64,000 nucleotides of DNA, taken from NCBI GenBank assembly GCA_903900845.1, contig CAIUOU010000110.1, positions 62,001 through 126,000 on the forward strand, given 5' to 3'. The stretch's first letter is position 1, and each line of letters opens with the position of its first letter. The notes beneath the pieces are model-generated. The model did not search any database, was not told where the DNA came from, and worked only from the letters and a program-made list of their open reading frames with translations. Made by a program: the position numbers and the translations under genes. The DNA comes from an uncultured Opitutia bacterium (GTDB taxonomy: Bacteria > Verrucomicrobiota > Verrucomicrobiia > Opitutales > Opitutaceae). Below are positions 30,812 through 47,285 of the stretch, piece by piece.

Positions 30812-30936
30812 GAAGGGGATAGGCGGAATTTTTTCGCCCGCGGAAGGTGCAGCGCGGCTACGTGCCAACCGAAGCTTCGACCAGCAGGAACAGCCTCAAG
30901 GTCGTGAGTCGTTTCCAAACGGCTTCGCGAGGGGAT

Positions 30937-31058
30937 AACCACGGATGGACACGAATGGACACGGATAAATGCGGTTCGTCTGTAGTCGGGGTCACCGGAC
31001 CCCGGCTGCAGCAAGCGATGCACTCCTGATCCGTTTTCATCCGTGTTTATCCGTGGTT
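30937..31058. repeat. Composite intergenic element: inverted ACCACGGAT-type arms (30937-30969 and 31028-31058) around a GTAG hairpin
   Basis: Left arm AACCACGGATGGACACGAATGGACACGGATAAA; reverse complement of right arm AACCACGGATAAACACGGATGAAAACGGATC. Confidence 0.75.
30982..31007 (+). repeat. GTAG-hairpin copy D (GTAGTCGGGGTCACCGGACCCCGGCT)
   Basis: 7-bp stem CGGGGTC/GACCCCG with ACCG loop, plus outer T-G wobble. Confidence 0.6.
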
Positions 31059-44918: not shown

Positions 44919-45839
44919 TCACTTCTCGGCGGCGATGCGGCGGAGGTAGGCGCCGTACGAGGATTTTCCGAGACGGGCGATGTTGGCCTCGAGCCCGGCG
45001 CGGTCGATCCAACCCTGGCGCCACGCGATCTCCTCGAGGCAGGCGATCTTCAGGCCCTGGCGGTTCTCGATGACCGAGACGAACTGCCCGGCCTCGAGGA
45101 GCGAGTCGTGCGTGCCGGTGTCGAGCCACGCGGTGCCGCGCCCCAGAACCTCGACGTGCAGTTTTCCGGCCTCGAGGTACAGGCGGTTGAGGTCGGTGAT
45201 CTCCAGCTCGCCGCGTTTCGACGGCTTCAGGCGCCGGGAGAACGCGACGACGTCGGAGTCGTAGTAATAAATTCCCGGGATGGCGTAGTTGGACTTCGGC
45301 TGGGCGGGTTTTTCCTCGAGGGAAAGCACGCGTCCGTCGGTCGCGAATTCCACCACACCGTAGCTCTTCGGATCCGCCACATGGTAGCCGAAGATGGTGG
45401 CGCCGGAGGTGCGTGCGGTGGCGCGCTCAAGGGACTTCACCAGGTCGTGGCCGTAAAAAAGGTTGTCGCCGAGCACCAAGGCGGCCGGTTCGTTTTTCAG
45501 GAAGCCCACGTCCTCGGCGATGTGGAACGCCTGCGCGAGCCCGTCGGGGCTGGGTTGCTCGGCGTAGGTGAACTTCACGCCGAGGTTGGCTCCGTCGCCC
45601 AGCAGCTTGCGGAAAAGCGGCAGGTCGGTCGGCGTGGAAATGATGAGAATCTCGCGGATCCCGGAGAGCATCAGCACCGACAGCGGGTAGTAGACCATCG
45701 GCTTGTCGTACACCGGCATGAGCTGCTTCGAGACCGCGATGGTGAGCGGGTACAGCCGCGTGCCGGAGCCGCCGGCGAGGATGATGCCCTTGCGGGCAGG
45801 CGATAGGCGATGGGCTTTGGGCGATGGGTCAACGTTCAT
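44919..45839 (-). CDS. rfbA: Glucose-1-phosphate thymidylyltransferase
   Basis: [53 protein letters not shown]-terminal 16 residues ([16 protein letters not shown]) are non-canonical and encoded in the repeat array. Confidence 0.95.
45799..45826 (+). repeat. Heptamer array GGCGATA|GGCGATG|GGCTTTG|GGCGATG (distal side of four-helix ORF)
   Basis: Read directly; 45799-45814 is the exact reverse complement of 46184-46199 (16 bp). Confidence 0.92.
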
Positions 45840-46188
45840 AGGTTGCGGATCTGGCTTTGATCAGGGCGCCAAGTCGACGGCCGACGACGATTGCTTGCTG
45901 CTGAATACTGTGGACGCGTTCCGCGGGCAGAAGACCTACCTCTTGGGCGATTTCCAGCTGGGTCCGAAGTTCGGCCAAAGATCCCTTTGCGATATAGAAG
46001 AAACGGACGGAATCGCGATCCGTGTCACGTTCGTCTCCCTCCGCGATGTTCGAGGGGACGCTCACTGCCGCGCGGCGTATCTGGTCGCGCAGTGCCGGGT
46101 CGCGCAGGCGGTCGGTCGCCTTGTAGGTCTCGACCGTGAGCGCCATCGCATCTTTCCAGACCTGCAGATTTTGGAAGCCCGTTCCCAT
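45829..46188 (-). CDS. Four-helix bundle protein (S23 rRNA intervening-sequence protein family, PF05635-like)
   Basis: [28 protein letters not shown]...[23 protein letters not shown]...[25 protein letters not shown]: hallmark family motifs. Confidence 0.93.
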
Positions 46189-46213
46189 CGCCTATCGCCG
46201 ATCGCCCATCGCC
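46186..46213 (-). repeat. Heptamer array (plus strand CATCGCC|TATCGCC|GATCGCC|CATCGCC = GGCGATN x4 on minus), upstream of four-helix ORF
   Basis: Four consecutive 7-nt units, inverted relative to 45799-45826. Confidence 0.92.
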
Positions 46214-46214
46214 A

Positions 46215-47285
46215 TCACCCTTTAGCCCCTAGCCTTTCACGCGCGTAACGCGTGGCGGTGATCTCCGCCGCCCAACTACGGTGCGTGAGATACCATTCGA
46301 CCGTCTTCTCGATGCCGGTGGCGAAGGACTCGCGCGGGGACCAGCCGAGCTCGCGCTGGAGCTTCTCGCAGTTGATCGCGTAGCGGCGGTCGTGGCCGGG
46401 GCGATCGGCGACGTAGATGATCTGCGTGGTGTAGGATTTGCCGTCGGCGCGGGGCGACTTGCGGTCGAGCAGCGCGCAGATCGCGCGTACGATCTCGATG
46501 TTCGGTTTCTCGTTCAGGCCGCCGACGTTGTAGGTCTCGCCGACGCGACCTTTCTGGAGCACCAGCCAGATGGCGGCGGCGTGGTCCTCCACGTAGAGCC
46601 AGTCGCGCACCTGCATGCCGTCTCCGTAAACCGGCAGGCCTTTTCCCTCGAGGGCGTTGAGGATCATCAGCGGGATCAGCTTCTCGGGGAAGTGGTACGG
46701 GCCGTAGTTGTTCGAGCAGTTGGTCGTGAGCGTGGGCAGCTTGTAGGTGTGCTGGTAGGCGCGCACGAGGTGGTCGCTGGCGGCCTTGGACGCCGCGTAG
46801 GGGGAGTTCGGCGCGAAGGGCGTTTCCTCGGTGAAGGCGGGGTCGTCCGGCGCGAGCGTGCCGTAGACCTCGTCGGTCGAGACGTGCAGGAAACGGAAGG
46901 CCGCCTTGCGCGGTTCGGGCAGCTTCGCCCAGTGCACGCGCGCGGCGTTGAGCAGGCGCAAGGTGCCGACGACGTTGGTCTGCACGAACGGCTCCGGCGA
47001 ATCAATCGAGCGGTCCACGTGTGACTCCGCGGCGAAGTTCACCACGGCGTCGATCGCGTGCTCGGCCAGCAGGCGCGACACCAGCTCGGTGTCACCGATC
47101 CCGCCGTGGGCGAAGACGTAGCGCGGGTCACCCGCGAGGTCGGCGAGGTTGGCGGGGTTTCCCGCGTAAGTGAGGGCGTCGAGGTTGACGACCTTGGCCG
47201 CGGCGCCGGGACCTTTTTCCAGCAGCCGCTGCCGGATGAAGTTGGAACCGATGAAGCCGCAGCCGCCGGTGACGAGGAGGTTCAT
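46215..47285 (-). CDS. rfbB: dTDP-glucose 4,6-dehydratase
   Basis: MNLLVTGGCGFIGSNFIRQRL; NFAAESHVDRSI; VSTDEVYGTL; PYAASKAASDHLVRAYQHTYKLPTLTTNCSNNYGPYHFPEKLIPLMI. Confidence 0.97.
   Translation of the reverse strand: MNLLVTGGCGFIGSNFIRQRLLEKGPGAAAKVVNLDALTYAGNPANLADLAGDPRYVFAHGGIGDTELVSRLLAEHAIDAVVNFAAESHVDRSIDSPEPFVQTNVVGTLRLLNAARVHWAKLPEPRKAAFRFLHVSTDEVYGTLAPDDPAFTEETPFAPNSPYAASKAASDHLVRAYQHTYKLPTLTTNCSNNYGPYHFPEKLIPLMILNALEGKGLPVYGDGMQVRDWLYVEDHAAAIWLVLQKGRVGETYNVGGLNEKPNIEIVRAICALLDRKSPRADGKSYTTQIIYVADRPGHDRRYAINCEKLQRELGWSPRESFATGIEKTVEWYLTHRSWAAEITATRYARERLGAKG

Follow-up and report, generated by a model that had tools for sequence, protein, structure and literature searches.

Genes annotated as S23 or "four helix bundle protein" are common, unexplained small genes of environmental bacteria. 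The closest known kind of element to the one described here is the S23 intervening sequence (IVS) of 23S rRNA, found in Coxiella, Leptospira, and others. A similar layout is seen in the REP/REPIN and RAYT system, in which a single-copy gene is located between inverted short repeats and many ORF-less repeat pairs are dispersed.

The S23 protein of Xanthomonas is a homopentamer (PMC4990558). Convergent, frequently paired arrays of the heptamer GGGAATC have been reported in Xanthomonas, and mostly unpaired GGGGAYT arrays in Nostoc (PMC4692102); that paper makes no mention of S23 and describes no general association of heptamers with mobile elements. Apart from the heptamers of the Coxiella IVS, a search of the open-access literature yielded no paper that connects S23 genes to arrays at their flanks, and none joining those heptamers (PMC4990558) to the convergent arrays (PMC4692102).

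The S23 gene and its arrays at the rfbB-rfbA junction

The window, i.e., the whole 64,000-nucleotide stretch that was analysed, contains an S23 gene that lies outside any 23S rRNA gene, between rfbB and rfbA (Table 1); Rfam gave no match for the unit. The initial annotation had described a complete S23 ORF at this position, and profile searches bore this out: the product matched PF05635 (E 4e-31; 107.8 bits against a curated cut-off of 33.8) and TIGR02436 (107.7 against 24 bits). The AF2 monomer model (pLDDT 95.6) had its best Foldseek matches in the S23 proteins of Xanthomonas (2gsc) and Bacteroides (2rld) and, more distantly, in Avd (4dwl/8ub7), and showed the S23 fold as in 2gsc (TM 0.84-0.90, 40-42% identity). 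The proposed sharing of a fold with Avd, the accessory protein of diversity-generating retroelements (DGRs), was also correct (Foldseek prob 1.00 to 4dwl/8ub7 chains). The gene was rejected as Avd itself, with a score of 24.7 bits against the Avd equivalog cut-off of 80 and with rfbB and rfbA as its neighbours. S23 has no catalytic domain and the unit encodes no enzyme; no transposase was seen, the arrays of the window enclosing only the PF05635 gene and no Y1 transposase.

Table 1. Features of the S23 locus in the window
Feature	Position	Strand	Basis or remark
S23 / four-helix-bundle gene, 119 aa	45829..46188	-	PF05635, TIGR02436, AF2 + Foldseek
5' arm (gene orientation), heptamers GGCGATG GGCGATC GGCGATA GGCGATGGG	46184..46213	-	S23 start codon within arm
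3' arm, reverse complement of 5' arm; GGCGATA GGCGATG GGCTTTG GGCGATGGG	45799..45828	+	encodes part of new RfbA N-terminus
Outer older-type units GGCTAGG GGCTAAA GGGTGAT, over rfbB 3' end	46214..46236	-	full arrays of these units: G009, L094, L100, L101
rfbB (dTDP-glucose 4,6-dehydratase family), upstream host gene	46215..47285	-	
rfbA (nucleotidyl transferase), downstream host gene	44919..45839	-	

The perfect 16-bp inverted repeat reported in the initial annotation was verified: on the plus strand, positions 45799-45814 (GGCGATAGGCGATGGG) and 46184-46199 (CCCATCGCCTATCGCC) are exact reverse complements. The arms are the 7-nt tandem arrays that had been proposed, TRF giving a period of 7 and 4.3 copies both at 45799-45828 and at 46184-46213, and a strict scan of the window for periods of 6 to 9 returned the right array as its single match. 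Throughout the 4.4-Mb genome, GGCGATNGGCGATNGG occurred at these two array sites only, in opposite orientations, and the reversed-pattern control gave 0 matches.

The arrays extend into the coding regions. The right array contains the start codon of S23 (46188-46186), and its outer units contain the stop codon of rfbB (46217-46215). At the other end, the rfbA start codon (45839) and the S23 stop overlap, and the left array therefore encodes residues of the RfbA N-terminus. The native RfbA start (M-N-R-K-G-I), which is present in empty-site relatives, is lost in the window and replaced by the new start. Host protein ends derived from arrays were observed for the RfbA N-terminus (window 45790-45839) and for the GatA C-terminus of congener G006 (L330); with 7 mod 3 = 1, an array runs through all reading frames. 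Annotators should be aware that conserved genes such as gatA and rfbA can take their start or stop codons from arrays.

On the rfbB side, the older-looking units GGCTAGG and GGCTAAA (minus strand, 46221-46234) lie outside the GGCGATN units, and the outer units match full arrays found at the same junction elsewhere (Table 1). The window S23 protein is 71% identical to that of L119 in G011 (GGCGATG type) versus 57-58% to those of the GGCTAGA type. The combination of GGCTAGA-like outer units, GGCGATN inner units, and a protein nearer the GGCGATG type suggests that an older GGCTAGA unit at this junction gave way to a GGCGATN unit, perhaps via recombination within the arrays. Elsewhere in the window (30936-31058), a second, ORF-less inverted pair with units of approximately 10 nt (CACGGATGGA and its reverse complement) is located in an intergenic region and resembles the arrays bounding GxxExxY genes.

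Inverted arrays and operon junctions in other genomes

The three other S23 genes of the window's genome, which lie in one sugar-nucleotide cluster, all lack GGCGATN. The initial annotation had looked to such four-helix genes for flanking arrays, and each proved to have its own (GGGACTA, GGGAGTGA, and GGAAGATAGGGAGAG), with a degenerate tandem array on the 5' side and its reverse complement on the 3' side. A single heptamer common to all S23 genes of the genome was thus rejected, GGCGATN being confined to the window locus.

The survey of PF05635 genes covered 27 congeneric genomes, 47 loci from Desulfobacterota, Nitrospirota, Omnitrophota, and other phyla, and further genomes. Each of 132 non-redundant S23 loci was scored by the strongest inverted match of the 200 bp preceding the start codon with the 200 bp following the stop codon; equally spaced sliding windows in the same loci, mostly coding DNA, served as the control, 1% of which exceed their 99th percentile by construction. 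The median score was 18.6 for the S23 loci and 8.8 for the control, and 72% and 86% of the loci exceeded the control 99th and 95th percentiles, respectively. The best unit period was 7 nt in 80/103 arms and 8 nt in 17/103, and the lag-7 and lag-14 identity of the arms was 0.61-0.65 versus 0.25. The number of units per arm had a mode of 4-5, and arrays of more than eight units were common. Inverted arrays were likewise found at 18 of the 21 S23 loci in a cyanobacterial sample (genomes from the phylum of a cyanobacterial MAG), with units such as GAGTGCT, GTCATTA, TCAGGAG, and AATTCGT, which we take to be of the kind called STRR in cyanobacteria. An inverted short-repeat layout, usually of 7 nt, therefore surrounds most S23 genes studied here, in many phyla, and is apparently undescribed as a class. 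The 5' arms contained 275 sense and 112 antisense stop trinucleotides. A minority of S23 loci (L064, L065, and L067) had pyrimidine-rich 5' arms, and less than half of the bases were purines in 11/103 5' arms.

The sequence of the unit followed the protein. The cognate 3' arm outscored all non-cognate S23 3' arms of the same genome in 77 of 88 loci. Where the flanks of two S23 genes were non-homologous, the arms were similar in at most 1% of pairs below 40% protein identity, 36% at 50-60%, 64% at 60-80%, and 100% (five pairs) above 80%; the curve was much alike for homologous flanks. Arm similarity and S23 identity were correlated over 5005 pairs (Mantel r 0.56), a value reached in none of 1000 permutations. 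Since arm similarity rises with S23 identity even where the flanks are non-homologous, the array follows the gene rather than the place, and these three results ruled out an array type set by locus or genome.

The rfbB-rfbA junction of relatives, a comparison also raised by the initial annotation, was found in empty, occupied, swapped, and decayed states. It is empty in G010, G013, G016, G022, and other congeners. A window-type S23 gene occupies it with GGCGATN arrays in G000 (the window's genome), G019, and G011, with GGTNATG arrays in G018, and with GGCTAGA arrays in G009, while G003 contains a different S23 subfamily with GTGTAAG arrays, the second G003 copy of which has an internal deletion and intact arms. 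An S23 remnant is present in G021, and ORF-less array pairs in G017, G020, and G015.

Two further junctions gave similar results. At gyrB-gyrA, S23 genes occur with GTAGCGR arrays in five species and with GGAGYGA arrays in two, and six species, including that of the window (contig C167:88890-89234, L263), have a GxxExxY nuclease gene flanked by 9-nt arrays of the CGCGAAGGN type; the remainder have ORF-less pairs (five species) or short spacers. At gatA-gatB, an S23 gene with GTAGCGR arrays is present only in G006, six species carry GxxExxY genes bounded by arrays of the CACAGAGGA type (in truncated form in G017), five have ORF-less pairs of the 9-nt type, and eight congeners have array-free spacers, at the extreme with the genes overlapping. 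The G006 gatA-gatB S23 protein is at most 91% identical to those of the gyrB-gyrA units, and both have GTAGCGR arrays; at gatA-gatB, the arrays are the outermost sequence of the insert, as terminal inverted repeats at the element ends, and one of them supplies the GatA stop codon. A GTAGCGR array is also retained at the G006 gyrB-gyrA junction, at a contig end. In G019, a sister genome, the junction of L001 is occupied by a GxxExxY nuclease gene, next to which a remnant of the L001 heptamer array persists. These junctions show, at the level of sequence, that the arrays are the termini of units and that the units fill operon junctions that are empty in relatives. No insertion polymorphic within one species was found, and inspection by eye revealed no target-site duplication at gatA-gatB (G006 versus G024) or rfbB-rfbA (G011 versus G010), the species compared being diverged. 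The cyanobacterial duplicate pairs L355/L356 and L358/L359 were rejected as guides to the element boundaries, the duplicated blocks exceeding the element.

GxxExxY loci had inverted arms above the control 99th percentile in 22 of 30 cases, with units of 9-10 nt. Judged from their sequences, GxxExxY PD-(D/E)XK nuclease genes with such arrays constitute a second family at the same junctions.

Arrays without an ORF gave from tens to approximately 240 matches per genome, overlapping matches within one array being counted separately. For the GCGGATT type, G017 had 131 matches in the forward and 111 in the reverse orientation, and three other congeners had approximately 75-80 each over both orientations; GTAGCGR had 119 and 105 matches in G006. 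Adjacent clusters were convergent in 31/32 cases, with gaps of 5-382 bp, among the places listed for G001 and G007. GCGGATT arrays were dispersed in G017, G001, G007, and G015, and one was apparently located inside an mnmA-like coding region (L240). The search for an S23 partner with the GCGGATT unit gave only a partial candidate, L224 (GGATTTC and GGATACC units). In G016, 31 GTAGCGR matches were detected and no S23 gene with that array was found, and likewise in G009, G015, and G026 (partly sampled). The many GTAGCGR arrays lacking a matching S23 gene suggest that dispersal may not need the cognate S23.

Origin of the units and alternative explanations

We consider the feature to be probably (at roughly 60%) a small insertion unit consisting of a lineage-specific heptamer array, an S23 gene, and an inverted array. 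The self-contained insertion unit suggested in the initial annotation fits all of the junction comparisons, and we infer that the unit moves, its movement by its own means being conjectural for a unit that encodes no enzyme. The S23 pentameric ring may bind its own array, with approximately one subunit per 7-nt unit, 4-5 units per arm being only a mode. The ring could bring the two array ends together (synapsis), thereby promoting spread and preserving its own array type, while a strand-transfer, nuclease, or polymerase step would be supplied in trans by host repair or replication or, alternatively, by a reverse transcriptase that acts on the transcribed hairpin. With the arrays providing both stop and start codons, a unit inserted between genes in the sense direction would leave the operon expressed.

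The units could instead be mRNA intervening sequences, whose arms pair in the operon transcript so that RNase III cuts the stem and the S23 message is excised; operon position, not mobility, would then be what counts. In the predicted minimum free energy structure of the window transcript, the two arms are paired (-197 kcal/mol, z -2.45), the neighbours of S23 genes are mostly co-directional (upstream 74/81, downstream 63/78, from longest-ORF calls), S23 is enclosed in 23S IVSs by a 28-bp stem that RNase III cleaves, and the Coxiella IVS has heptamer repeats (GACAGAT) upstream of S23 (PMC4990558). This explanation is unlikely: alone it does not account for heptamers specific to lineages, a preferred period of 7, or the hundreds of ORF-less pairs, and among the mismatches between arms those of the G.U type are not in excess (112, versus 193 of the A.C type, a comparison that ATG avoidance in the 5' arm may bias). 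Selection for an RNA stem is thus unsupported by the wobble-mismatch test. The concerted change of the arms may alternatively reflect their homogenisation at the DNA level. Over all S23 loci, mismatches combining a 5'-arm A with a 3'-arm C were in excess, the opposite of a wobble bias, perhaps owing to the avoidance of ATG before the S23 start.

We regard it as very unlikely that the arrays are operators and S23 a resident regulator, the pentamer controlling the operon through binding to the array, in the mRNA or DNA of its own gene, in the manner of TRAP on triplet repeats. The coupling of array type to protein lineage and the modal 4-5 units per arm beside a pentameric fold would suit such autoregulation, which leaves unexplained the inverted second array, the ORF-less pairs, the GxxExxY genes at the same junctions, and the many empty congeners. 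Passive formation and homogenisation of inverted arrays by replication slippage and quasipalindrome template switching, with S23 as a hitchhiker, is highly improbable given the specific link to two ORF families with different unit lengths and the correspondence between unit sequence and protein lineage even at unrelated loci, even though many bacteria have an excess of heptameric repeats, often in convergent orientation (PMC4692102), and the concerted arm change without wobble bias suits a DNA-level correction that may well act additionally.

The units may, at about even odds, represent a hitherto unrecognised class of transposase-free mobile elements with inverted lineage-specific arrays, of 7-8 nt with S23, of 9-10 nt with GxxExxY, and ORF-less in hundreds of cases. 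Heptameric repeats, long unexplained in cyanobacteria and xanthomonads, are now tied to S23 genes; the binding of a pentameric ring to a heptamer array is offered as a hypothesis that makes the purpose of S23 directly testable, and a second, nuclease-bearing family is pointed to at the same sites.

Comparison with known systems

Several known systems share part of this organization. As in DGRs, a protein with the four-helix-bundle fold of Avd is present (TM 0.73-0.80 for most chains), but the S23 loci read showed neither a reverse transcriptase nor a template/variable repeat. MITEs are likewise short ORF-less inverted-repeat units between genes, whereas the present units have no fixed terminal sequence and no target-site duplication was seen; to our knowledge, there is no known cognate transposase for heptamer-array units. 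The REP/REPIN-RAYT system resembles the present one in its gene between inverted short repeats and its dispersed ORF-less pairs, but the present unit lacks a Y1 transposase and its repeat is a tandem 7-mer array, not a fixed palindrome. The Xanthomonas GGGAATC, Nostoc GGGGAYT, and cyanobacterial STRR arrays are also G-rich heptamer arrays, forming convergent pairs in Xanthomonas; the arrays described here differ in bounding S23 genes, in the cyanobacterial sample as well.

The 23S rRNA IVSs of Coxiella, Leptospira, and others are closest, having, like the window unit, an S23 ORF within inverted, stem-capable termini and, in Coxiella, tandem heptamers before the S23 start (PMC4990558). Unlike these, the present units lie in protein operons and have heptamer arrays at both ends, the unit sequence differs per element, and ORF-less relatives are dispersed. 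It is about as likely that the units form a separate new class of element as that they belong to the S23-IVS kind. A class of this nature, if real, would bring together S23 genes, the IVSs of 23S rRNA, the STRRs of cyanobacteria, and the heptamer pairs of Xanthomonas, with S23 as an array-recognising protein.
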